Shown here: positions 5,089 through 30,812 of the stretch, piece after piece
Numbering within the stretch: position 1 is the stretch's first letter
Layout of the letters: each line of letters starts with the position of its first letter
Notes under the pieces: generated by a model
The model's database searches: none
Told to the model about the DNA's origin: nothing
The model's input: only the letters and a program-made list of their open reading frames with translations
Source of the DNA: Protofrankia sp. CiP1_Cm_nod1
GTDB lineage: Bacteria; Actinomycetota; Actinomycetes; Frankiales; Frankiaceae
Length of the DNA stretch: 49,729 nt
Reading direction: 5' to 3'
Assembly: GCF_920888515.1 (NCBI RefSeq)
Contig: NZ_CAKKTM010000140.1
Span: 1-49,729, forward strand
Translations under genes and position numbers: made by a program

Positions 5089-6606
5089 GTGATCGAGTGG
5101 CTCCTCATCCTGATCAGCGTTGTGCTGGTCGGGGTCTGCGGCGTTTTCGTCGCCGCCGAGTTCTCCCTGGTGACGGTCGACCGGATGACCGTCGAACGTG
5201 CCGCGGCAGCCGGTGACCGCAGGTCCGGAGGCGTCCTCAAGGCGCTCACGAAGCTCTCGACCGAGCTCTCCGGCGCACAGCTCGGCATCACCATCACCAA
5301 CCTGGCGATCGGGTTTCTCGTGGAACCGGCGATCGCGCGCCTGCTCCACGGCCCGCTGAAGGCCGCCGGGATACCCGCGGGAATGGCCACCGGCGTCGCC
5401 GTCGCGATCGCCGTGCTGCTCGCCACGGGCGTCACCATGATCTACGGCGAGCTCGTCCCGAAGAATCTCGCGGTGGCCCGGCCGCTGGCGACCGCGCGGA
5501 TGGTGCAGGGGTTCCAGCGGGGGTTCAGCCGGGTGGCCGCCTTCCTGATCCGCCTGCTCAACGGCGCCGCCGAGGCTCTGCTGCGGCGGCTGGGCATCGA
5601 GCCGCAGGAGGAGCTTGCCTCGGCCCGCTCCGCGCAGGAGCTGTTCTCCCTGGTCGGCCGGTCCGCGGAGCAGGGCACGCTCGCGCCGGAGACCGCGACG
5701 TTGCTGCAACGCTCGCTGGCGTTCGGGCACAAGCAGGCCGCGGACGTCCTAACCCCCCGGGTCCGCATGTGGACGGTCGGGGCCGGTGACCCGGTCAGTG
5801 AGGTGATCGCGCTCACCCGCCGGACCGGGCACTCGCGTTTCCCGGTCGTCGGGCAGGACCTCGACGACGTGGTCGGTCTGGTCCATGTCAAGCACGCGGT
5901 CGCCGTCCCCGAGGACGACCGGGGCGTCGTGACCGTCGGCGACGTGATGGTCCCTCATCTGAGCGTGCCGTCCACGATCGAGCTCGACCCGCTGCTGGAG
6001 ACGCTGCGCCGCGGCGGGCTGCAGATGGCGGTCGTCATCGACGAGTTCGGCGGCACGGACGGCCTGGTCACCATCGAGGACCTGATCGAGGAGCTGGTCG
6101 GCGACGTCGTCGACGAGCACGACCGGGTCGGGCTGCGCGCGGCCCGGCGCCGGGACGGGACGTGGCTGCTCTCCGGCCTGCTCCGCCTCGACGAGGTGGC
6201 GCAGACCGTCGGCGTCCACCTGCCGGTGGACGAGGCGTACCAGACGCTTGGCGGGCTTGTCGCCGACCGCCTCGGCCGGGTGCCGGTCGCCGGCGACGCG
6301 GTCGAGGTCGACGGCGTCACCCTCACCGTCCAGCTCATGGACGGCCGCCGGGTGGACCGGGTCCGTCTGGTTCCCGCGCACGTCCGTGCCGACGGCGAGC
6401 CTCCAGCGGATGGCGGCTCTTCTACGGCTCCTACGGGAGGTGGCCCTCCCGCGGGCGGCGAAGCCCCCAGGGATGAAGCCCCCAGGGATGAAGCCCCCAG
6501 GGACGGTGGCCGTTCCGCGGATGACGACCGTTCCGGGAACGGCGGCCGTCCCGGGGGCGGGTGGTGCGGCTCCGCCGCCCCGGACGCGATGGGGGCGCTG
6601 CGGTGA
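5089..6606 (+). CDS. CNNM/HlyC-CorC family membrane protein with CBS pair
   Basis: A 505-aa integral membrane protein of the CNNM (DUF21)-CBS-CorC_HlyC family. Members are linked to Mg2+/Co2+ efflux or homeostasis; the older haemolysin label is historical. An N-terminal DUF21 region with about three to four membrane helices (1-190) includes the family motif GELVPKNLA. A tandem CBS pair follows (about 215-345, nucleotide-sensing), then the CorC/HlyC C-terminal domain (about 355-440). The last about 65 residues are disordered and contain three EAPRD units encoded by a 15-bp tandem repeat at about 6466-6510. It starts at GTG 5089. Its stop overlaps the start of the next paralogue (GTGA), so the two are translationally coupled and probably form a hetero-oligomer. 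Confidence 0.9.
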   Translation: MIEWLLILISVVLVGVCGVFVAAEFSLVTVDRMTVERAAAAGDRRSGGVLKALTKLSTELSGAQLGITITNLAIGFLVEPAIARLLHGPLKAAGIPAGMATGVAVAIAVLLATGVTMIYGELVPKNLAVARPLATARMVQGFQRGFSRVAAFLIRLLNGAAEALLRRLGIEPQEELASARSAQELFSLVGRSAEQGTLAPETATLLQRSLAFGHKQAADVLTPRVRMWTVGAGDPVSEVIALTRRTGHSRFPVVGQDLDDVVGLVHVKHAVAVPEDDRGVVTVGDVMVPHLSVPSTIELDPLLETLRRGGLQMAVVIDEFGGTDGLVTIEDLIEELVGDVVDEHDRVGLRAARRRDGTWLLSGLLRLDEVAQTVGVHLPVDEAYQTLGGLVADRLGRVPVAGDAVEVDGVTLTVQLMDGRRVDRVRLVPAHVRADGEPPADGGSSTAPTGGGPPAGGEAPRDEAPRDEAPRDGGRSADDDRSGNGGRPGGGWCGSAAPDAMGALR

Positions 6607-9325: not shown

Positions 9326-10084
9326 TCAGACGGCCGCCGGTGGGGTCCGCGCGGCATCCGCCGGGGCGCGGCTCGTGGGAGTGGTCGCTGCGGGAGCGGT
9401 CGCTGCGGGAGCGGTCTCCGCCGAGGCGGCGCCCGTCGGTGCGGATGGCAGGCTGCCCGCGTCGTCGCCCGCGCCGGTCTCCCGGCCTGCCGTTTGGGTG
9501 ATCTCCTGGGCCGCCGCCCGGGCGAACTCGCTGGTGGGTCCCGGCTGCGGCACGAAGATCACTTGTCGGTAGTAGCGCAGCTCGTCGATGCTCTCCTGGA
9601 TGTCGGCCAGGGCGCGGTGCCCACCGCGCTTGGCCGGTGCCGCGTAGTAGGCCCGCGGGTACCAGCGCCGGGCGAGTTCCTTCACGGTCGACACGTCGAC
9701 CATCCGGTAGTGCAGGTAGCTGTCGAGCGCCGGCATGTACCGGGCGAGGAAGTTGCGATCGGTAGCGATCGAGTTGCCGCACAGCGGGGCCTTGCCCGCG
9801 TCCGGGACCTGATCGCGGATGTAGTCGAGCACCTGCCGTTCGGCGTCGGCAACGGTCAGCGTCGATGCCCGTACGGCTTCGGTCAGTCCCGAGGCGGCGT
9901 GCATCTGCTGGACGACGGCATCCATCCCGGCCAGCGCGCTCTCCGGCGCGGACACGACCACGTCCACGCCGTCGCCAAGAACATGCAGTTCGCTGTCGGT
10001 GACCAGGCAGGCGACCTCCAGCAGGAGATCCGAGGCGGCGTCGAGCCCGGTCATCTCACAGTCGATCCAGACGAGGCGATCCAT
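9326..10084 (-). CDS. orn: Oligoribonuclease (DEDDh 3'-5' exonuclease)
   Basis: A 252-aa protein whose first about 180 residues are a complete oligoribonuclease. This enzyme degrades 2-5-mer RNAs, including pGpG from c-di-GMP turnover, to mononucleotides. DEDDh residues are D8 and E10 in WIDCEMTG, D109 in IATDRN, H156 in GGHRAL and D161 in ADIQES. The ATG at 10084 gives the standard [13 protein letters not shown] start; the frame upstream is low-complexity. The last about 70 residues are an Ala/Pro/Thr-rich tail with short repeats, absent from the usual 180-200-aa enzyme. It is followed on the same strand by tRNA-His. The GGDEF-EAL protein at 15.7 kb would produce the pGpG that this enzyme clears. 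Confidence 0.95.
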
Positions 10085-10202: not shown

Positions 10203-11798
10203 TCACAGCCAGGCCGGGGACGAGGCGCCGAGCGGGAGCGGCGGATGGGACCAGGTGCGCGGGCCGCCGGCCACCCGTAGGGGCGGAAGCACGTAGGTCA
10301 GCCGCCCGCCGTGGCTGTCAACCGTGTCCAGCCACGGCGCCACGTCGACCGCCGGGGCGTTCCCGGAGGCGCTCGCCACGGCCGCGCCACCGGCCGTGGC
10401 ACCGCCGGTGACGGCTCCACCGGTTTCACCGGTCTTCCCATCAGCCCTCGCGCGCTGGGCGAGCAGCCAGGTGGCGGTCTGGGCGAGTGACAGCTGAGCA
10501 TGCCAGGAACCGGGCTCCCGGTGGCGCAGTGTGAGAGCGCGCAGGACGGCCGCCGCCGTCAGGTAGCCGGTGGCGTGGTCGAGCGCCTGGGCGGGCAGCA
10601 CCCCTGGCCGGCCTTCTGACCGGCCTTCTGACCGATCTCCTGACCGATCTCCTGACCGGCCCTCCGAGCGGCCCTCTGGCCGGCCGCTGCCCGGATCGTC
10701 GCCGGCTTCTGTCGTGGCTATGCCCGTGGCAGCCTGGACGATGCTGTCGAACCCGCGCCGGCCGGCCCACGGCCCGGCCGGTCCCCATGCGCTCAGCGTC
10801 ACCACCACGATGCCGGGACGCCGCTCGTGCAGCGCCCGCGGCGACAGCCCGAAGCGGTCCAGTGCCCCGGGGCGGTACCCGCTCACGACGACGTCCGCGG
10901 ACGCCAGCAGCTCCTCGAACGTCCGTCGGTCGGCCGGGCGTCCGAGGTCGAGAAAGGCCGATCGCTTGCCCGGGCCGGTGTCGAGGTGCTGGGCCGGGAT
11001 CTCGGGCAGCCGCGGGCTGTCGACCCGCAGGACGTCGGCGCCGAGGAAGGCGAGGGTCCTGGTGCCGATCGGGCCGGCGATGACCCTGGTCAGGTCGAGG
11101 ACGCGGATCCCGGCGGCGGGCCGGCCGCGCTCGCGGGCCGGGCGATGCCCCGCGCCGGGCGGGTGCCCGTCGCCCAGGCGGTGCATACCGGCCAGGGGCA
11201 GCCCGGCGAGGGCACGGCCCTGCGGGTGCTCTCGCCACCCGGCGGTGTCCCGTACGGCCGCGGCCACGCCGCCGTGCGCCACCACCCTGTCCTCGACCTC
11301 GGTCGCGGGCAGCGTGGCCACGGCCGCCCTGACCGCGGCTGTCGGGTCGGTCGCGGTGTCGGCGATCCCGAGCGCCGCCCGCAGCCGGGCCCGATGGTGC
11401 GGGTAGTTGCCGTGCAGCCGCACCCAGCCGTCCGCCGTGGGCAGGAAGGCCGACAGCGGATCCATGCCGATCTGCGGCCGGCCGTCGAGGCGCAGATGCC
11501 GTTCGCTGGTGAAGGCCGCGGCCACCGCGCCGCTGTCGATCGTCAGCGGCTCCCCGCCGCGTGGGCCCGCTCCCGCGGGTATGGCTGCCTCCGCGGGTAT
11601 GGCGTTGAGTTCGCCGGCCGCGAGCCCGACGACGGCCACGCTCGCCTGGGCGAGCGCGCTGACCGGCAGCCGTGCTGGCAGGGCCTGCGGCGAACCGATG
11701 ATCGTCACCGTGTCCTGGCCGGGAAACTCGCCGCCGAGCGCTCGCGCGGCTTCGGCGATCATCTCCCGAACATGACGAAAATGTGATTTGTCACTCAT
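10203..11798 (-). CDS. CaiB/BaiF (family III) CoA-transferase
   Basis: A 531-aa family III acyl-CoA transferase. The second half has the canonical N-terminal signature [20 protein letters not shown], followed by LGADVLRVD and [10 protein letters not shown], and a substrate-site segment [16 protein letters not shown]. About 215 residues precede that signature and look like a second, degenerate CaiB-like segment, so this may be a fused two-half protein as in some actinobacterial members. The catalytic Asp is probably in LTRVIAGP...GADV or ALDHATGYL; this was not resolved. A Gly/Arg/Ser/Glu-rich tract (GRSEGRS units) from a 12-bp tandem repeat interrupts the second half. The start is ATG 11798, with no clear ribosome-binding site. 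Confidence 0.82.
10608..10683 (-). repeat. 12-bp tandem repeat inside the CoA-transferase gene
   Basis: About six imperfect 12-bp units of the type CCGATCTCCTGA/CCGGCCTTCTGA encode an in-frame GDRS/GRSE-type tract in the middle of the transferase domain. The unit length is a multiple of three, so copy changes keep the frame. Confidence 0.8.
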
Positions 11799-15681: not shown

Positions 15682-18054
15682 TTGACGATGTCAGTTCACA
15701 CCGCTCGTCGGCTGCGGTTGATCGGTGCGGGGCAGGTCGTGCTGCTGGTGGCGGCCGTGTTTTTCGCCGTCACGACGCTCGTCGGCCTACGTGATGTGTC
15801 GTCCATCGTCAACCAGGCCGACAGGTGGCTGGGCAACAGCTTCAGCATCGCCGCCGGTGGCTTTTGTATGTTGCGTGCCATTCTGGTCCGCGGTGAGCGG
15901 CTCGCCTGGGCTGTGCTCGGCACCGGCCTGCTGTCCTATGGCGCCGGCAGCATCTACTTCACCGAGATCATGAACCATGCCGACGCGCCGTCGCCGTCGC
16001 CGGCGGACATCGGCTGGCTCGTGTTCTACGCGACCACCTGTATTTCCGTGATCCTCCTGCTGCGTGGGCGGGTCACCCGGTTTCACCCCAGCCTGTGGCT
16101 GGACGCGCTGGTGGGCGGCCTCGGCGTGGCCGCGCTGGCGAGCGGGCTCGCCGCCGCCGTCATCGGCGTGGACAACCCGGCGGGGCTGTCGGTCCTCGGC
16201 CTGAACATCGCCTACCCGCTCGCCGACCTGATGCTGCTCGTGCTCGTGGCCAGTGCGTTCGGGCTGCGGGGCTGGCGCCCCGAGAAGGCCTGGTGGCTGC
16301 TGGGGATCTCCCTCGCCGGCTTCGCGGTCGCCGACACGATCGTCACCGGCGCGATGGCGGGCGGCACCTACACTCCGGGCGGCCCGGTCGAGGCGCTCTG
16401 GGCGCTCGCGCTCGTCCTGCCGGCCTGCGCCGCGTGGCAACGGGCCCCACGGGAGATGTCCGACCGGGTCGCCGGCTGGGAGATGCTGTTCATCCCGTTC
16501 TTCTTCGCCGTCAGCGCGCTCACGCTGCTGGTGGTCGGGGCCTTCATCAGGCTGCCGCCGCTGACCGTCGTGCTCGCCGCCGGGACGATCCTGTCCGCCA
16601 TCGTGCGTGCCGGCATCACGTTCACCGAGGTCCGCCAGCTCGTGGACAGCAAGATGCAGGCGCGCACGGACGAGCTGACGGGGTTCGCCAACCGCCGCGG
16701 GTTCTTCGAGCTGCTCAGCGAGGAGGAGGCACGCGACTGCGGCGCCACGCGCTTCGCGCTGCTCGTGCTCGACCTGGACCGCTTCAAGGAGATCAACGAC
16801 TCTCTCGGCCACCAGGTCGGCGACGACCTGCTCAAACTCGTCGGCCGCCGGATCGAGACGGCGCTGCGCCCGACGGACCTGCTGGCCCGGCTCGGCGGCG
16901 ACGAGTTCGCCGTGCTCCTCCAGGACGCCGACGCCACCGCGGCGCGGGCCGTCGCCGAGCGGGTGCTGGCCGCCCTCGACGGCCCGTTCGACGTCGACGG
17001 GGTGAGCTTCCACGTCGACGCCAGCATCGGGGTCGCGGTCTATCCCGATCACGCGGTGGCCGGGAACGTCCTGCTGCAGCGGGCAGACATCGCGATGTAC
17101 GCCGCAAAGGCGGCCCGTACCCGGATCGAGCACTACCGGCCCGGCGCCGACCTGCACATCCTCGACCGCCTCGACGTCATCGAGACCCTGCGGGCCGGGC
17201 TCGGCCAGGACCAGCTGCGCCTGCACTACCAGATGAAGGTCGACCTGCGCACGGGCATCTGCCACGCGGTGGAGGCCCTGGTGCGCTGGGAGCATCCCAC
17301 CAGGGGGCTGCTCCAGCCCAACGAGTTCCTGCCCATGGCCGAGCACACCGGGCTGATGCGCACGCTGACCCTCGAGGTGCTCGGGCTGGCCCTCGACCAG
17401 TGCCGCCAGTGGTGGGACGCCGGCCTGAAGATCGGTGTCGCGGTCAACCTCTCCGCGCCCAACCTGCTCGACAAGGGATTCCCGGCCGAGGTCAGGGACC
17501 TCCTCACGGCGAAGGGGGTGCCGCCGAGGGCACTCGAACTGGAGATCACCGAGACCGCTCTGATGCTCGACCGGATCCGGACCGCGGCCGTGCTCGGCAG
17601 CCTGCGGGAGATGGGGGTCCGCATCGCCGTCGACGACTACGGCACCGGCTACTCGTCCCTGGCCTACCTGCGGGAACTGCCGGTGGACGTGCTCAAGCTG
17701 GACAAGTCGTTCGTCATCCACCTCGACTCCGACCCGCTCTCGGCGGCCATCGTGCAGTCCACGGTGGGGCTGGCGCACTCCCTGGCCCTACGGATCGTGG
17801 CCGAGGGGGTTGAGACCGAGACGGCCATGGGCCGGCTGGCCGACTACGGCTGCGACTTCGCCCAGGGCTTCTACCTGGGCGCACCCCAGCCCGCCGACAA
17901 GCTGACCCCGCTGCTGTGGCACCGCAACAATCGCCGCGCGTATTCCTCCTCCGGGGAGGGCGGATACCCGCCGTCCCGATTAGAGCGGGTGACAGCGGCT
18001 GACCTGATGGCCGACGGGGCCGAGCCCGCCCGCGCCGGTCACCCGTGGACCTGA
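15682..18054 (+). CDS. Membrane-bound GGDEF-EAL c-di-GMP turnover protein
   Basis: A 790-aa protein with about ten predicted membrane helices (1-320). A diguanylate cyclase domain follows, with an intact GGDEF (405-409), an RxxD I-site (RPTD, 396-399) exactly five residues before it, and FKEINDSLGHQVGDD. The EAL phosphodiesterase domain has EAL (531-533), NLSAPN, ELEITE, DDYGTGYSS, KLDKSF and AEGVE all present. Both activities therefore look possible, with product inhibition at the I-site. TTG 15682 is preferred over ATG 15688 because GGGGAG is 8 nt before the TTG and 14 nt before the ATG. The stop overlaps the start of aat by 10 nt. Confidence 0.93.
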   Translation: MTMSVHTARRLRLIGAGQVVLLVAAVFFAVTTLVGLRDVSSIVNQADRWLGNSFSIAAGGFCMLRAILVRGERLAWAVLGTGLLSYGAGSIYFTEIMNHADAPSPSPADIGWLVFYATTCISVILLLRGRVTRFHPSLWLDALVGGLGVAALASGLAAAVIGVDNPAGLSVLGLNIAYPLADLMLLVLVASAFGLRGWRPEKAWWLLGISLAGFAVADTIVTGAMAGGTYTPGGPVEALWALALVLPACAAWQRAPREMSDRVAGWEMLFIPFFFAVSALTLLVVGAFIRLPPLTVVLAAGTILSAIVRAGITFTEVRQLVDSKMQARTDELTGFANRRGFFELLSEEEARDCGATRFALLVLDLDRFKEINDSLGHQVGDDLLKLVGRRIETALRPTDLLARLGGDEFAVLLQDADATAARAVAERVLAALDGPFDVDGVSFHVDASIGVAVYPDHAVAGNVLLQRADIAMYAAKAARTRIEHYRPGADLHILDRLDVIETLRAGLGQDQLRLHYQMKVDLRTGICHAVEALVRWEHPTRGLLQPNEFLPMAEHTGLMRTLTLEVLGLALDQCRQWWDAGLKIGVAVNLSAPNLLDKGFPAEVRDLLTAKGVPPRALELEITETALMLDRIRTAAVLGSLREMGVRIAVDDYGTGYSSLAYLRELPVDVLKLDKSFVIHLDSDPLSAAIVQSTVGLAHSLALRIVAEGVETETAMGRLADYGCDFAQGFYLGAPQPADKLTPLLWHRNNRRAYSSSGEGGYPPSRLERVTAADLMADGAEPARAGHPWT

Positions 18055-19070
18055 CCACCATGGACGCGGGCGGCACAGGCTCAGGCGGCATGGACCCGGG
18101 CGGTATGGACCCGGGCGGCATGGACCCGGGCGGGGGCGGCGCGGACCTGACCGGCCCGCCCCGGCATCCTGGCCGGTCGGTGTGGGACTCCGTGGCGGAG
18201 GTCGGTCCGGCCGATCCCGGTGACGCTCCGTTCGCCTTCGGTGGTGATCTCTCCCCGGCGACCCTGGTCGGGGCCTACCGACGGGGCGTCTTTCCCTGGC
18301 CGCCCGACGAGCCGCCCGACGAGCCGGCCGGCGGTCCGGTCGCGGTGGCGAATGCCCTGGGGCCCGGTGACCCGGCGGCGGCCGGCGGCCGGCCGCCCAT
18401 CTTGTCCCGCGACGCCCAGGAACTGTCCCCCGACGTCCAGGAACTGTCGCGGGATACCCGGGGACGGGCCGATCTCGCCTGGTGGAGCCCGGATCCGCGC
18501 GGTGTACTGCCCGTCGGCGGGGTGCGCGTGGCCGACTCGCTGTTCAAGCGGATGCGCGCGTGCGACTGGACGACCACCCTCGACCACGCGTTCGTCGACG
18601 TCGTGCACAACTGCGGCCAGGGCACCCGGCGTACCTGGATCACCACCGAGCTCGCCGGCGCCTACCAGGAGCTGCACCGGCTCGGCTGGGCGCACAGCGT
18701 CGAGGTGTGGCAGGACGACGAGCTCATCGGCGGGATGTTCGGCGTGCTCGTCGGCGCCGCCTTCATGGCCGAGTCCATGTTCCACGTGCGCACCGACGCG
18801 TCCAAGGCCGCGCTCGTCGACTTCGACGCGCGGTTCGCGCCGGCCGGTGGCCGGCTCGTCGACGTGCAGTTCGTCACCGCGCACGCGAAGTCCATGGGAG
18901 CGGTCGAGATCCCGCGGGTGCGTTTTCTCACGGAGCTGCGGCAGGCACGGGATGCCGAGGTGCGGCTTGACCGCGGCCGGCTACCGGTCACCCGGCTGGC
19001 CGAGCTGGCCCGGCAGGCCCGGCAGGCCCGGCAGGCCCGGCAGGCCCGGCAGGCCCGGCAGGCCCAGTAG
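18045..19070 (+). CDS. aat: Leucyl/phenylalanyl-tRNA-protein transferase with repeat-derived extensions
   Basis: A 341-aa transferase that attaches Leu or Phe from aminoacyl-tRNA to N-terminal Arg/Lys residues, feeding the ClpAP/ClpS N-end-rule pathway. Core motifs are FGGDLSPATLVGAYRRGVFPW, WWSPDPRGVLP, TWITTELAGAY, GGMFGV, AESMFH and DVQFVTAHAKSMG. Three low-complexity additions are visible: an N-terminal GGMDP triplet (15-bp repeat, 18084-18128), an insert of about 45 residues between FPW and WWSPDPR containing duplicated RDAQELS/PDVQELS, and a C-terminal RQA array (9-bp repeat). The start is uncertain: GTG 18045 or an ATG at 18060, 18090, 18105 or 18120. The 10-nt overlap with the GGDEF-EAL gene suggests coupled translation. 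Confidence 0.93.
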   Translation: MDLTTMDAGGTGSGGMDPGGMDPGGMDPGGGGADLTGPPRHPGRSVWDSVAEVGPADPGDAPFAFGGDLSPATLVGAYRRGVFPWPPDEPPDEPAGGPVAVANALGPGDPAAAGGRPPILSRDAQELSPDVQELSRDTRGRADLAWWSPDPRGVLPVGGVRVADSLFKRMRACDWTTTLDHAFVDVVHNCGQGTRRTWITTELAGAYQELHRLGWAHSVEVWQDDELIGGMFGVLVGAAFMAESMFHVRTDASKAALVDFDARFAPAGGRLVDVQFVTAHAKSMGAVEIPRVRFLTELRQARDAEVRLDRGRLPVTRLAELARQARQARQARQARQARQAQ

Positions 19071-19076
19071 GCCCGG
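19014..19076 (+). repeat. 9-bp minisatellite containing the aat stop codon
   Basis: Units of CAGGCCCGG start at 19014, 19023, 19032, 19041 and 19050. A CAGGCCCAG variant follows at 19059, then TAGGCCCGG at 19068. The aat stop TAG is the C-to-T variant of a repeat CAG, and similar units run on to about 19098. Confidence 0.9.
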
Positions 19077-19383
19077 CAGGTCAGTAGGCCCGGCAGGTCG
19101 GCACGACGCTCGGTAGGTGCCGTGGGCATCCGGGCGGGACAGGCGTGGCAGTGGCCCGCGGTGGCTCGCGGTGGCACAGCCCCGCTGGGCCGGTGTCCGC
19201 CGGCCGGAGGTCTGGGGCCGTGCCCGGCCATCCGCGCGCCGGGCACGGCCTGACCGGCTGCTCGCCGGTCCCCGTCGGGCTTCCCTTCATGGCTTCTTAT
19301 GGCTTCTTATGGCTTCTTACGCTTCCGCCGTTTCCCCGGTGCGGTCCTGGACGACCGTCGTGGCGTTACGGTGGGTACGGGTG
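19071..19383. other. Convergent intergenic region after aat
   Basis: 313 bp between convergent aat and the oxoamine synthase. It holds the end of the 9-bp array and a triple TGGCTTCTTA decamer at about 19290-19320. No gene is supported. Confidence 0.5.
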
Positions 19384-20685
19384 CTATCCGTCCTGGGCGG
19401 GCGCGGCGTCCGACAGCATGTCGGCGACCTCGGCGAGCACCTCGAGCAGGTGGCTGATCTCCTCGTCGGTGTTGGCCGCGGTGACCTGGATGCGGAACCC
19501 CACCTTCTCGCGCGGCACCATCGGGTACGGCGCCAGGGTGGTGTAGATCCCCCGGTCGAACAGATGGTCGCCGATGGCGTCGATACGGTCCGGGGCGCCG
19601 ACCGGTATCTCGATGATCGGGCTGCCCGACCGGTTCGGCGAGGCCAGCCCGAGCCGCCCCATCCCGTCGAGGATCCGGGCCGTCTTGCGGTGGAGATCCG
19701 CGCGGATCGCGTCGCCCCGCCGGGCGTTGAGCGCGAACCCGGCCTGCACGGTCGCGAGCGAGGCCACCGGGGACGGCCCGGAGAAGGTGTGCGGGGAGGT
19801 GGCCGCCTTGAGGTGGTTCTTCACCTCGGTCGGGCAGGCGAGGAAGGCCAGCAGGGACGAGTAGGCCTTGGAGAAGCCCGCTACCAGGATGATCCCGTCG
19901 TAGCTCTCCCCGACATGGCGGATGAGGCTGTTGCCCTGGCTGCCGTAGGGGCTCAGTTCGTCGGGCCGGCGCTCGCCGATGACGCCGAAACCGTGCGCGT
20001 CGTCGATGTAGAGGAGCGCGTCGTTCGCGCGGGTCACCCGGGCCAGCTCCGCCACCGGCGGGATGTTGCCGGTCATGCTGTTCAGCCCGTCGACGCACAC
20101 CAGCCGCGGGTGGCTGCGGCAGGCCCGCAGCATCTCCTCGAGCTCGGCGGGGTTGTTGTCGTCGAAGCGCTGCACGGTCGCGCCCCAGGCCCGGGCCATG
20201 ACGCAGCCGTCGTGGATGGAGCGGTGCGCGTTGCGGTCGATGAAGATCGTTCCCTGCCCGGCGAGGGCTGGGATGACCGACAGATGGATGTGCGTGATCG
20301 TGGGGAGTGCCAGGCTGTCCTCGGCGCCGAGCAGGTCGGTGAGCTCCTGCTCGATCTCGACGAACAGCCGTGGGGTCGCGATCATCCGTGACCAGCTCGG
20401 ATGCGTGCCCCACCTGGCCAGGTACTCCGGCACCGCCGCGATGATCTCTGGCTCGAGGTCGAAGCCGAGATAGTTGCAGGACGCGAAGTCGGTCAGCCAG
20501 TGGTCGCCGACCCGCATCTGGCGACCGTCCACCTCGTCGACAATCGCCTCCATCATTGGATGCGTTTTCCGTAACCGTGCCATCTCCGACATTGGACCGA
20601 GCGGCCGGGCCGGTAACCAACGGTGGGCTTCCGGGCGCTCAGAAGAAGCGTGGAGCGAGGGTAAATCCTGCGCGGTCTTTGACAA
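19384..20685 (-). CDS. PLP-dependent alpha-oxoamine synthase family protein
   Basis: A 433-aa fold-type I PLP enzyme related to 8-amino-7-oxononanoate synthase and 2-amino-3-ketobutyrate ligase. These enzymes condense an amino acid with an acyl-CoA. The PLP Lys is in GFSKAYSS and the Asp that holds the PLP nitrogen is in IDDAHGFGVIG. A substrate/PLP segment reads NYLGFDLEP. The usual GSGGSR segment of BioF/KBL is replaced by THPSWSRMIAT, so it belongs to a divergent branch and should not be called bioF. TTG 20685 has AGGAGG 4 nt upstream. The next in-frame ATG (about residue 32) is an alternative. No biotin or acyl-carrier gene is nearby. A ferredoxin gene lies upstream on the same strand. 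Confidence 0.85.
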   Translation of the reverse strand: MSKTAQDLPSLHASSERPEAHRWLPARPLGPMSEMARLRKTHPMMEAIVDEVDGRQMRVGDHWLTDFASCNYLGFDLEPEIIAAVPEYLARWGTHPSWSRMIATPRLFVEIEQELTDLLGAEDSLALPTITHIHLSVIPALAGQGTIFIDRNAHRSIHDGCVMARAWGATVQRFDDNNPAELEEMLRACRSHPRLVCVDGLNSMTGNIPPVAELARVTRANDALLYIDDAHGFGVIGERRPDELSPYGSQGNSLIRHVGESYDGIILVAGFSKAYSSLLAFLACPTEVKNHLKAATSPHTFSGPSPVASLATVQAGFALNARRGDAIRADLHRKTARILDGMGRLGLASPNRSGSPIIEIPVGAPDRIDAIGDHLFDRGIYTTLAPYPMVPREKVGFRIQVTAANTDEEISHLLEVLAEVADMLSDAAPAQDG

Positions 20686-21312: not shown

Positions 21313-22102
21313 GTCACACCTCACATTCGTTGTGGCGCCGTGCATTCGTTGTGGCGCGTTCGCGGTGGCTGCTCAGCAGATTCTAGCTGCGACGGGCACC
21401 GGCTGTCGGCCGCTGCCGGTCGCCGGGCGGTGCCGGTGAAAAAGCGCGCCCGGGCACTGTGGCCGGAGAATCCCGGGCCGGAGTACCCGGGATTCGGGAG
21501 CCATTCGCGGCGGGCCCGTGAAACATTGGCCCGGCCCGTTTCCGGGCGGCGGGAAATACGTGACATTGCTGGTACGTACAGCTGTCGTCCGGATGAAGCC
21601 GCAGCTCCCAGGGCTGATCGGGCAGCCGCTGCCGCTGCCGGGGAGCCCGTGGAGCTCCGGTGCCCATCGGCTGTGGGCCCGGTGGTGCCGCGGTCACGGG
21701 TTTTCCGGGCCGGGCGGGAGCAGTTACCCGCCGTCCGCCGTCCGCCGTCGGGAACGACCGGGTCATCCCGCTTTTACCAGCTGGAAACACGATATGTGCG
21801 CGAATCGACGGGCTGCCCGCCGGGCCGCACCATACCTGACGTGTCGAATGCCTGGCGAAGAACGGACGGATGTCTCGGTGAAAAAGGACATATGCCGGGC
21901 GGTGCCGGCCTGGAATCCTCATGGCCGTGCTCCGGGCGCGGCCACCACCGCCCCGGCCGAGCGGCGCACCGGGGCGCGTCGGGCAGGCGGCGTAGCTGCC
22001 CCCGATGACGTCTTCGGGGGTGCCTCCGGCTCACGGGAACCGGAGACACCCCCGAACGGGGCTCGCGCAGGGAGGCGGATGCCGGCTGCGGGGAGGGAGC
22101 CC
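21313..22102. other. Long spacer between ferredoxin and modA
   Basis: 790 bp with no supportable gene. Its right end carries the modA terminator structures (21999-22060), and the left end should hold the ferredoxin promoter. No modB, modC or remnant of them is readable here. Confidence 0.55.
22016..22053 (-). terminator. Terminator hairpin after modA, with a competing hairpin
   Basis: Arms GGGGGTGCCTCCGG and CCGGAGACACCCCC pair over 13 of 14 positions with a 10-nt loop, about 50 nt beyond the modA stop. The GGGGG at 22016-22020 can instead pair with CCCCCGA at 21999-22005, so two structures compete for the same bases. Confidence 0.6.
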
Positions 22103-24495: not shown

Positions 24496-26445
24496 TCACT
24501 CGGCGAGGGTGTCGAGGATCTGTTGTCCGTACCTGGCGAGCTTGTGCTCGCCGACGCCGCTGATGGTGGACAGTTCGGCCAACGTGGCCGGCGGGCGTGA
24601 CGCGATCTCACGCAGGGTGGCGTCATGGAAGATCACATATGCCGGGACGCCCTGTTCCTTCGCGACGGCCGCGCGCCAGGCGCGGAGCCGCTCGAACACC
24701 GGCATCGCCTCTTCCGACAGTTCGGCCACGGCAACGCGGCGGGACCTCGTGCCTTTGGACGCGGCCGTGCCCGCGGATGTGGCCGTGCCCGCGGACGCGG
24801 CCGTGCCCGTGGATGTGGATGCGGCCCTGGCGGCGGGCTCCGGCTCGCGTCGCATCAGGACCGTGCGCTGCCCGCGCAGCACGTCGGCGCTCGTGTCGGT
24901 GAGCACAAGGGTGCCGTGCTCACCCTCGACCGCCAGCAGCCCCTGCACCAGCAGCTGCCGCACCACACCGCGCCACTCGGGCTCGCCGAGCTCGGTGCCG
25001 ACGCCGAAGACCTTCAGGGTGTCGTGATCGCGCTGGATCACCTTGGCGGTCTTCCTGCCGAGCAGGATGTCGACGAGGTGGCCCGCGCCGAACTTCTGGC
25101 GGCGCTCCCGCTGCAGCCGGAGCACAGCCGACAGCAGCTTCTGGGCGGCGATCGTGCCGTCCCACGTCCGCGGGGGTGTCAGGCAGGTGTCGCAGTTGCC
25201 GCACGGGGCGGTGCGCTGCTGCCCGAAGTAGGCGAGCAGCCCGGTGCGGCGGCACTCGACCGTCTCGCACAGCGCGAGCATGGCGTCGAGGTGGGCGCTC
25301 AGCCGCCGACGGTGCGTGAGATCGCCCGCGGACGCGTCGATGAGCTTGCGCAGCTGCACGACGTCCTGCAGGCCGTAGGCCAGCCACGCGGTCGAGGGCA
25401 GCCCGTCACGTCCGGCACGCCCGGTCTCCTGGTAGTACCCCTCGACGGACTTGGGCAGGTCGAGATGGGCGACGAAGCGTACGTCCGGTTTGTCGATGCC
25501 CATGCCGAAGGCGATGGTCGCGACCATGACGATGCCGTCCTCCCGCAGGAAGCGCGCCTGGTGCTCGGCTCTGGTGCGCGCGTCGAGCCCGGCGTGGTAC
25601 GGCAGCGCCGCGATGCCGTTCGCCACCAGGAATTCGGCGATCTTCTCGACGGAGGAGCGTGACAGGCAGTAGACGATGCCCGCGTCCCCGGTGTGCTCGG
25701 CGCGCAGCAGCGCCAGCAGCTGCGCCTTCGGCTCCTTCTTCGACACGATGCGGTACTGGATGTTCGGGCGGTCGAAGTCGGCCACGAAGTGGCGGGCGCC
25801 CTCCAGGCCGAGCCGGGAGGTGATCTCGGTGTGGGTCGCCGGGGTCGCGGTGGCGGTCAGCGCCACTGTCGGCACGTCCGGCCAGCGTTCGCGTAACTCG
25901 GACAGCAGAAGGTAGTCGGGCCGGAAGTCGTGACCCCACTGCGCGACGCAGTGCGCCTCGTCGATCGCGAACAGTGCGATCGTGCCCTGGTCGAGCAGCG
26001 TGACCGTCGCGTCGACGCGCAGCCGCTCCGGCGCCAGGTAGAGCAGGTCGAGCTCACCGGCGAGGAAGGCGGACTCCACCTCGCGGCGCTCGTCGAACTC
26101 CTGGGTGGAGTTGAGGAACCCCGCCCGTACGCCGAGCGCCCGCAACGCGTCGACCTGGTCCTGCATCAGCGCGATCAGCGGTGACACCACGACGCCGGTG
26201 CCCGGCCGTACCAGGGCGGGGATCTGGTAGCACAGCGACTTGCCGCCACCGGTCGGCATCAGTACGAGCGCGTCGCCACCGCCGACGACATGATCGATGA
26301 TCTCCTGCTGGCCGTCCCGGAACGACTCGTACCCGAAGACACGGCGCAGCACCCGCGCGGCGTCGCTCGCGCCGTCAGTCAGCCGGACATCGCTGTCGGC
26401 CAGCGGCGGGGCGTCGGCCGGGCTGTCGACCAGAGGGGAGGTCAC
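24496..26445 (-). CDS. recQ: ATP-dependent DNA helicase RecQ
   Basis: A 649-aa RecQ helicase that unwinds 3'-5' in recombination and replication-fork repair. In order it has a Walker A ([12 protein letters not shown]), DEAH box ([15 protein letters not shown]), SAT-like ALTATAT motif, motif V/VI ([27 protein letters not shown]), zinc-binding Cys in CETVECRR and CGNCDTC, winged-helix RQC, and a C-terminal HRDC domain (about 570-645). Between RQC and HRDC is a Ser/Thr/Ala/Gly linker from an 18-bp tandem repeat (about 24762-24830). The start is GTG 26445 with no strong ribosome-binding site; the first conserved residues begin about 30 codons in. Confidence 0.95.
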
Positions 26446-28480: not shown

Positions 28481-30661
28481 TCAGCCCATGTCCCACAGCC
28501 GTATCGCCTCGTCGCTGGAGCTGGCGAGGGTGCGTCCGTCCGCGGTGAAGGCCACCGACCGCACCCCGTTGGTGTGGCCGGTCAGGGGGGTGCCCAGGGG
28601 GTGGGGTGCGGTCCGGTCGGAGACGTCCCACAGCCGCACGGTCCGGTCGCCGCCGGCGCTGGCGAGGGTGCGCCCGTCCGGGGTGAACGCCACCGACCAC
28701 ACCCAGCCGGTGTGGCCGGTCAGGGGGGCGCCCAGGGGGTGGGGTGCGCTCCGGTCGGAGACGTCCCACAGCCGTATGGTGTGATCGTCGCTGGCGCTGG
28801 CGAGGGTCCGCCCGTCCCGGGTGAAGGCCACCGACACCACCCAACTGGTGTGGCCGGTCAGGGGGGTGCCCAGGATGTGGGGTGTGCTCCGGTTGGAGAC
28901 GTCCCACAGGCGTATGGTCCGGTCGCCACTGGCGCTAGCGAGGGTGCGCCCGTCCGGAGCGAACGTCACCGAGCCCACCCAGTCGGTGTGGCCGGTCAGG
29001 GGGACGCCAAGCGGGTGGGGTGCGGTCCGGTCGGAGACGTCCCACAGCCGTACCGTGCGGTCCTCGCCGGCGCTGGCGAGGGTGCGCCCGTCCGGAGCGA
29101 ACGCGACCGAGACGACCGTGTTGGTGTGGCCGGTCAGGGGGACGCCCAGGGGGTGGGGTGCGGTCCGGTCGGAGACGTCCCACAGCCGTACCGTGTGATC
29201 GTGGCTGGCGCTGGCGAGAGTCTGCCCGTCCGGGCTGAAGGCCACCGACCGCACCCTGTCGGTGTGGCCGGTCAGGGGGGCGCCCAGGGGGCGAGGGGCG
29301 GTCCGGTCGGAGACGTCCCACAGGCGTATGGTCCCATCGCCGTTGGCGCTGGCAAGGGTGTGTCCGTCCGGGGCGGAGGCTATCGACTCCACCCAGCTCG
29401 TGTGGCTGGTCAGGGGGGAGCCCAGCGGCTGGGGGACGGGGGAGGCCCTGACGCTGAAGGCAGGGGAGTCCTCGCCACGGGAGGCTGTGACGGCGATGGC
29501 GATGGCGATGGCGAGCAGCACCGCCGTTGCCGCGGCGGACACGACAAGCGCGGTGGTGCGTGGCCGGCGCGGTCGGCGCCGGGACGAAGAGACCGGGTCA
29601 GCATGCTCGGACGGGGCGGACCTGTCCGAGGCCGATGTGGGTGGCCAGGAACGGCCCGCGTCACGGACAATCGTCGGATAGAGATCGCGGTCGGTGGATA
29701 CCGGGACGGGTACGCCCGGCCTGCCCGGTGGCGCATCCCTCCGCGTCCCGGGCGGTGTCGGTGCCCGCGGGGCGGTAGAGGGCTGGTCGCCGGCGGTGCG
29801 GATGTCGTCGTCGAGGCGGAGCCCGATGCCGGTACGGGTGATCCAGCCCGGGCCGAAGGCGCCGGCGGCGGCGTGGGCCAGGTCGAGAGCGAAGGCGCGT
29901 GTGGAGGGTGGGCGGTCGGCCGGGTTCTTGGCCAGGGCGTGGAGGACCACGTCGGCGATGAGAGTGGGCACTCCGGAGGGCCGGGCGGGGATGGTGTGCA
30001 GGTGGTGCTGCCAGAGCACGGGCAGCGGTAGCTGCGGGTCGAACGGCGGCGCCCCCGAGAACAGTTCGTAGAGGAGCACCCCGAGCGCGTAGAGGTCGGT
30101 GGCCGGGCTCAGCCGGCCTTCGGCGATCTGCTCGGGAGCCATGCACTTCGGCGTTCCGATGATCTTGCTGGCGGTGGTGTCGGGCCCTTCGACAATTTTC
30201 GCGATGCCGAAGTCGACGACTTTGAGCAGGCCGGTGGCGTCGAACAGGATGTTGTCGGCTTTGATGTCACGGTGCAGGACACTGCGGCCGTGGGCGTAGG
30301 CCAGGGCCGCGGCCACGGCCAGGCCGACGGCGCAGGCGTCCTCGGGTGGCATACCGGCCCGGCGGCGGGTCAGGCTCCCCCCGTCGAGAAGCTCCATGAC
30401 GATCAGATGCAGGCCGTCGGTCGCGGCGTAGTCATAGACCTGCACCACATGCGGATGGCTCAGCGCGGCGAGCAGCCGCGCCTCGGGGGCGAACCCCGCT
30501 TCTGCCCCGTCGCGTCCCGCCGCCAGAATCTTGATGGCCACGGGACGGTCCAGCCCGCGGTGCCGGCCGGCCAGCACCAGCCCGAACGCGCCCTGGCCGA
30601 GGGGCCCGCCCAGGTCGTAGCCGGGCAGCGCCGCGGCCACCCGGGCCCTGTCGACAATCAT
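28481..30661 (-). CDS. Membrane Ser/Thr protein kinase with seven WD40 repeats
   Basis: A 726-aa kinase with an intact catalytic domain (about 15-275): glycine loop LGQGAFG (21-27), Lys 44 in VAIKI, HRDIKADN (Asp 132), DFG (150-152) and APE in MAPEQ. A Pro/Ser-rich linker and one membrane helix (about 393-413) follow, then seven WD40 repeats of about 46 residues (GHT...VAF.PDGRTLAS...D.TIRLWDVS) that would form a beta-propeller outside the cell. The repeats are nearly identical at DNA level (138-bp period, 28490-29400). ATG 30661 is preferred over the TTG 24 codons upstream. Likely a sensor kinase; its ligand and substrates are unknown. Confidence 0.93.
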   Translation of the reverse strand: MIVDRARVAAALPGYDLGGPLGQGAFGLVLAGRHRGLDRPVAIKILAAGRDGAEAGFAPEARLLAALSHPHVVQVYDYAATDGLHLIVMELLDGGSLTRRRAGMPPEDACAVGLAVAAALAYAHGRSVLHRDIKADNILFDATGLLKVVDFGIAKIVEGPDTTASKIIGTPKCMAPEQIAEGRLSPATDLYALGVLLYELFSGAPPFDPQLPLPVLWQHHLHTIPARPSGVPTLIADVVLHALAKNPADRPPSTRAFALDLAHAAAGAFGPGWITRTGIGLRLDDDIRTAGDQPSTAPRAPTPPGTRRDAPPGRPGVPVPVSTDRDLYPTIVRDAGRSWPPTSASDRSAPSEHADPVSSSRRRPRRPRTTALVVSAAATAVLLAIAIAIAVTASRGEDSPAFSVRASPVPQPLGSPLTSHTSWVESIASAPDGHTLASANGDGTIRLWDVSDRTAPRPLGAPLTGHTDRVRSVAFSPDGQTLASASHDHTVRLWDVSDRTAPHPLGVPLTGHTNTVVSVAFAPDGRTLASAGEDRTVRLWDVSDRTAPHPLGVPLTGHTDWVGSVTFAPDGRTLASASGDRTIRLWDVSNRSTPHILGTPLTGHTSWVVSVAFTRDGRTLASASDDHTIRLWDVSDRSAPHPLGAPLTGHTGWVWSVAFTPDGRTLASAGGDRTVRLWDVSDRTAPHPLGTPLTGHTNGVRSVAFTADGRTLASSSDEAIRLWDMG

Positions 30662-30812
30662 GACGTGGGAGCCGCCCCACGCTGGCGGTAACGTCGACCG
30701 CGCACCATCCGCCCCCCGATACTCCGCGTACAAGGCGTGATCCTAGCGGTGTCCGACACGGCCGGGTGGCCCGTTCTGCCCCATCCGGGTCGGGCCCGCT
30801 CTGTCCTTCGGA

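Follow-up and report, generated by a model that had tools for sequence, protein, structure and literature searches.

How does the gene for a small enzyme come to carry tandem repeats near its start, in its middle and across its stop codon? The question is raised by aat, which encodes a protein-tagging enzyme, in Protofrankia sp. CiP1_Cm_nod1, a nitrogen-fixing bacterium of root nodules. The DNA analysed is a stretch of 49,729 nucleotides (contig NZ_CAKKTM010000140.1; hereafter, the window). Our preferred reading, with a probability of roughly 0.8, is that the repeats are coding minisatellites grown by slippage. They would be tolerated in flexible segments of an aat orthologue, with core and reading frame kept by selection.

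We compared the window genome (G000; 5.22 Mb, 476 contigs, 87% complete, Protofrankia type) with the other members of a five-genome genus set. These are Candidatus Frankia californiensis Dd1 (G001), Protofrankia coriariae BMG5.1 (G002), G003 and Frankia sp. CIT1 (G004). Each species is represented by a single genome. Hence, the window genome and P. coriariae are taken as different species. The region around aat is 87.1% identical between them, gaps counted. Arrays were called with Tandem Repeats Finder (TRF). The gene and its tracts are as follows.

18045 to 19070, plus strand: aat coding sequence, leucyl/phenylalanyl-tRNA-protein transferase; 341 amino acids, 1,026 bp; PF03588 E value 8.5e-54, TIGR00667 158.6 bits.
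18059 to 18133, plus strand: 15-bp array in the N-terminal tail, 5.0 copies (TRF).
18299 to 18330, plus strand: 12-bp repeat at the start of the interdomain linker, 2.7 copies (TRF), encoding PPDEPPDE.
18372 to 18395, plus strand: weak, GC-rich 10-bp repeat in the linker (TRF score 41).
18403 to 18448, plus strand: 21-bp repeat in the linker (RDAQELS/PDVQELS), 2.2 copies (TRF).
18468 to 18914, plus strand: catalytic Leu_Phe_trans domain, residues 142 to 290 (Pfam range), free of arrays.
18991 to 19097, plus strand: 9-bp array crossing the stop codon (TRF, pattern matches, AlphaFold2).
19065 to 19098, plus strand: 17-bp tandem duplication spanning the stop, with copies at 19065 to 19081 and 19082 to 19098; single in P. 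coriariae.

The first-pass annotation had described three tracts in aat. All are present, by sequence and by TRF; the 12-bp repeat, the 10-bp repeat and the 17-bp duplication had been missed. The core of the 9-bp array is six identical CGGCAGGCC units (19011 to 19064), followed by CAG TAG. We considered whether the arrays derive from a mobile element or a dispersed family of repeats. This was not supported, since exact double units are confined to the aat locus in the window genome (five occurrences for the 9-bp array and two for the 15-bp array). G001 and G004 each have one copy of the 9-bp double unit, at another locus.

Together, five arrays occupy 252 of the 1,026 bp of aat (24.6%; TRF score at least 40). 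Shuffling codons across the whole gene (n = 100) left a mean of 8.4 bp in arrays, with a maximum of 79. Shuffling within 60-bp blocks (n = 100) left a mean of 42.9 bp, and none of the 100 shuffles reached 252. Units of 15, 12, 21 and 9 bp are multiples of a codon and the tracts exceed chance. Hence, they are coding minisatellites.

The runner-up gene of the window has 10.4% repeat coverage. Among 130 gene calls in a 246-kb sample of the genome, which takes in the window itself, picked for its repeats, aat ranks first for arrays (four at score at least 50) and for repeat fraction (0.22). For all genome samples, genes were called by codon usage, with starts set by the longest open reading frame (ORF). 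The top gene has five arrays among 114 gene calls of P. coriariae, and two of 148 Frankia gene calls have six. Hence, the array count of aat is not unique within the family. The earlier description of aat as unusual therefore holds in degree but not in kind. At least one array occurs in 32 of the 130 calls (none in the other 98), and 12 have a stop codon inside one. The case is extreme in degree and ordinary in kind. Elsewhere in the window, a minus-strand gene call (28481 to 30733), perhaps for a repeat-domain protein, has a 138-bp array of 6.9 copies (28490 to 29434). Repeat expansions also lie near differences from P. coriariae in other genes (6460 to 6503, 9377 to 9416, 10604 to 10685 and 24757 to 24813).

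The enzyme itself looks intact. Window Aat passes the curated cut-offs of TIGR00667 (158.6 against 143.55 bits) and PF03588 (182 against 22.7). Its best nine Foldseek matches are L/F-transferase chains, and the sequence match to E. coli Aat covers residues 144 to 302. Our family alignments hold 45 sequences, the window plus 44 of 56 collected genes. In these, the window keeps the invariant columns E243 and Q275 and the nearly invariant D273. We take this Glu, Asp and Gln to be catalytic. One gene, L103, lacked the motif and was left out of the gene set, the alignments and the tabulation of arrays and linkers. Two genomes, G024 and G032, gave an aat match yet no locus.

All five window arrays lie in the N-terminal tail, the linker or the C-terminal tail. 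AlphaFold2 confidence is below 50 at residues 1 to 15 and 97 to 121, and high in the core and in a helix at 316 to 340. Across residues 142 to 315, the ratio of non-synonymous to synonymous substitution rates (dN/dS) is 0.25 against both P. coriariae and californiensis. Over the 38 to 50 codons available for each of the other segments, it is 0.38 and 0.87, respectively, for the linker and 0.43 and 0.42 for the tails. The core is repeat-free and, by its dN/dS, under purifying selection.

The linker, from FPW to WWSPDPR, is 60 residues long compared with 8 in E. coli. In 28 of 29 Frankiaceae genes its length is 16 to 107 residues (one was not measurable). Of the 28 outgroup genes, all 17 that could be measured have 8; by eye, it is 7 to 13 in most others. 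Because the linker is long across Frankiaceae, the repeats grew inside a pre-existing insert. A long linker is not a Frankiaceae hallmark. Among other Actinomycetes it is 8 to 21 residues in 18 of 25; of four inspected among the remaining seven, two are short, while L206 and L220 are long. These two, from two other families, have linkers of about 41 and 35 residues. At least one array (score at least 40) is found in 17 of 29 Frankiaceae aat genes and in 4 of 28 others.

Could the repeats instead mark an aat gene that is decaying under lost constraint? The window and P. coriariae have an eroded form of the GRIPNL-type motif seen in the linker of relatives, and linker dN/dS rises to 0.87. Moreover, aat appears dispensable in the class: 50 of 79 genomes have a match and 29 do not (41 of 64 when near-complete), which does not fit its earlier description as an essential-type enzyme. 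Within the family, matches occur in 32 of 35 genomes (26 of 27 near-complete). Against decay stand the low dN/dS of the core, the retained invariant columns and the TIGR00667 score. ClpS, the adaptor that reads Leu and Phe N-termini, is present in 5/5 genus members. Hence, the N-degron pathway looks usable, and we give decay almost no credence.

Copy number differs between relatives. The linker unit is single in californiensis (LSRDGRG), double in P. coriariae (LSRDAQE-LSRDARG) and triple in the window (LSRDAQE-LSPDVQE-LSRDTRG). The 15-bp array has five units in the window, two degenerate ones in P. coriariae (by eye) and none in californiensis, CIT1 or G003. Relative to P. coriariae, window aat has insertions of 30, 36, 12 and 21 bp, all multiples of three; the 12-bp linker tract accounts for 12 bp. 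These 99 bp, with a C-terminal tail three residues shorter, fit the 341 residues of the window protein versus 311 in P. coriariae. Consistent with the first-pass annotation, aat has thus acquired its repeats by lineage-specific expansion, with copy numbers that vary between species (one genome each). In G003, a separate 18-bp repeat lies at another place in the N-terminal part. Hence, repeats entered aat more than once.

Such differences could be spurious if a fragmented draft or mixed-strain assembly gave wrong copy numbers. The window genome is in 476 contigs and 87% complete, and in CIT1 the contig starts inside a repeat shortly before aat. However, the longest arrays are 75 and 107 bp, inside ordinary read length. 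Units differ by single bases, and cognate arrays appear in the separately assembled sister species. Assembly error is therefore highly improbable.

The stop codon lies within the last tract, and two features define the end of the gene.

19068 to 19070, plus strand: TAG stop inside the 9-bp array, shared with P. coriariae (alignment).
19251 to 19253, plus strand: next in-frame TGA, 60 sense codons past the TAG, aligned with the californiensis stop.

As first noted, the TAG is one transition from the CAG of the array, and it looks like a CAG-to-TAG change of a unit. The final two units in P. coriariae, GAGCAGGCC and GAGTAGGCC, differ by a single C-to-T; the window has CAGTAGGCC there. Hence, we trace the stop to a unit of the array, from which it very probably arose before the window and P. 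coriariae lineages split. The TAG had also been described as labile. However, the same TAG in P. coriariae makes it older than the split, and so not a live switch. Gain or loss of whole units upstream would shift protein length in steps of three residues and leave the stop untouched. With units that are multiples of three and a stop common to two species, the locus does not behave as a phase-variable contingency gene; deletion of the stop unit is possible. The 17-bp duplication across the stop arose in the window later than the TAG. The californiensis gene lacks the TAG, its frame continuing to the TGA. Gain of TAG in the window and P. coriariae, or its loss in californiensis, would both fit, CIT1 and G003 ending earlier.

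Stops inside arrays number 12 of 130 in the window genome, 4 of 114 in P. coriariae and 12 of 148 in a Frankia. They are not a Frankiaceae speciality, since G051, of another family, has 10 of 115. As a separate observation, repeats crowd the first 100 bp past stops in the window genome (11.3% covered; the figure is 1.0% for −300 to −100 and 2.7% for the whole). This excess occurs in nine of ten sampled genomes; the exception is G003 (39 genes).

The C-terminal tail bears on whether the tracts have been selected. The predicted helix at residues 316 to 340 equates to DNA 18990 to 19064, and so matches the 9-bp array exactly; the array would thus encode a basic helix. In P. coriariae the tail is also a predicted helix (283 to 310) despite diverged units. 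Both tails contain six Lys/Arg, and the window units are identical. Selection might therefore have acted on the RQA array to lengthen a basic C-terminal helix, or on the tails to tune binding of tRNA, ClpS or substrate. Conversely, the tail is absent in CIT1 and G003, and in californiensis a continuation rich in Gly and Pro takes its place. Confidence can be overstated in models of repetitive stretches, and AlphaFold2 is prone to make repetitive Ala/Arg/Gln stretches helical. We consider selection for the tracts unlikely. In a more specific form, which we rate as very unlikely, the 9-bp array would be a self-terminating length ruler. One mutated unit would supply the stop, and the number of units ahead of it would set the length of the basic helix and so tune Aat binding to tRNA or partners. 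In this genus of symbionts, N-degron activity would then evolve through changes in repeat number.

The repeats also bear on where translation begins. The first-pass annotation had pointed to multiple ATG starts in the 15-bp array region, and in-frame ATGs do occur there at 18060, 18090, 18105 and 18120. The following features argue for a start upstream of them.

18045 to 18047, plus strand: likely aat start, GTG, overlapping the upstream TGA.
15682 to 18054, plus strand: upstream GGDEF/EAL gene (Pfam EAL 2.9e-65, GGDEF 1.5e-44), with its TGA stop at 18052 to 18054 overlapping the aat start.

The overlap pattern is kept in 5/5 genus members; four have a long upstream ORF and the contig of the fifth begins too near. 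Hence, the repeat ATGs are unlikely main starts, and GTG 18045 is the likely start on this comparative evidence. In the wider Frankiaceae, the pattern occurs at 18 of 29 readable loci (30 given); at 13 of these, the ORF upstream exceeds 150 codons. It is absent from the other 11, ten in genera g6 and g7 and one in g4. Translation of aat may be coupled to that of the GGDEF/EAL gene. The CIT1 contig (L004:1-27) opens within a GGAGGT-type repeat a short way upstream of aat, where the assembly may have broken off.

What might generate so many repeats? At score at least 50, arrays number 50 per 100 kb in the window genome and 59 in P. coriariae. The smaller samples of G001, G003 and G004 give 42, 20 and 25. 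Two Frankia genomes have 66.5 and 44.5, another Frankiaceae genus 27, and four other Actinomycetes 25 to 35. Markov simulations of the first six genome samples gave 0 to 14 arrays per sample. No MutS_V match was found in any of the five genus members (genomes 81 to 100% complete), and 11 of 14 controls were positive. NucS is present in 5/5. A passage of PMC8228993 reports that NucS repair is unable to correct short indels. Unrepaired slippage is a plausible source of the arrays. Among the literature titles and abstract openings surveyed, none describes repeats in aat of Frankia or Protofrankia; this is a weak negative. Tandem repeats of strain Dg1 are counted in a supplementary table of PMC4447401.

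On the slippage reading, minisatellites would gain whole codons through slippage or tandem duplication. The genome in which they do so is GC-rich, has arrays at a density of about 50 per 100 kb, and gave a match for NucS but none for MutS. Growth would be accommodated where length is tolerated: the N-terminal tail past the GTG, the already long linker and the C-terminal tail. Selection would hold the reading frame and catalytic core while units turn over between species. One unit with a CAG-to-TAG change, common to P. coriariae, would now set the C-terminus. The slippage mechanism, the near-neutrality of the expansions and the derivation of the stop from an array unit are what we infer.

Several results weigh against this account. 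General slippage alone would not predict that aat tops all 130 sampled gene calls. Four non-Frankiaceae genomes, of lineages expected to carry NucS, have just the 25 to 35 arrays per 100 kb given above. With densities so spread among Actinomycetes, repair is not the sole determinant of repeat density. A crude adjacent-copy test (75% identity) was passed by two of the four aat insertions and by 9 of 40 coding indels of at least 6 bp. Two other window genes exceed aat in indels of this size, with nine each. Finally, in aat genes of other Frankiaceae, five arrays were placed outside tails and linker (four in the core, one in the N-terminal domain). Hence, confinement to these segments is not absolute.

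Downstream, at 19384 to 20685, lies a convergent neighbour, a BioF/serine palmitoyltransferase-type pyridoxal phosphate-dependent acyltransferase, which falls below every listed NCBIfam cut-off. Synteny with P. coriariae breaks at 21940 to 21969, where P. coriariae has about 6.8 kb extra between flanking alignments.

We conclude that aat is a clear case in which repeat growth would have reshaped the flexible segments of an enzyme and fixed its end, with a stepwise ladder visible over living species. It also calls for caution with annotation in genomes of this sort, where the starts, stops and lengths assigned to proteins can depend on repeats. Should the length of the tail affect activity, it would offer bacteria a simple means of tuning protein turnover.

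Window Aat shares family, fold and conserved columns with E. coli Aat (2cxa, 2dps, 2z3k). It differs in its linker length and in the arrays of its N- and C-terminal tails. Bacterial coding minisatellites, known as variable number tandem repeats, are alike in their in-frame units, their location in flexible protein segments and copy numbers that vary among relatives. Here, by comparison, four tracts share one small enzyme gene, one contains the stop, and the variation is between species only. The phase-variable repeats of Mycobacterium tuberculosis, as described in PMC12817950, lie in promoters and alter expression within populations. Those of aat, in contrast, are coding, keep the frame and were compared between species.

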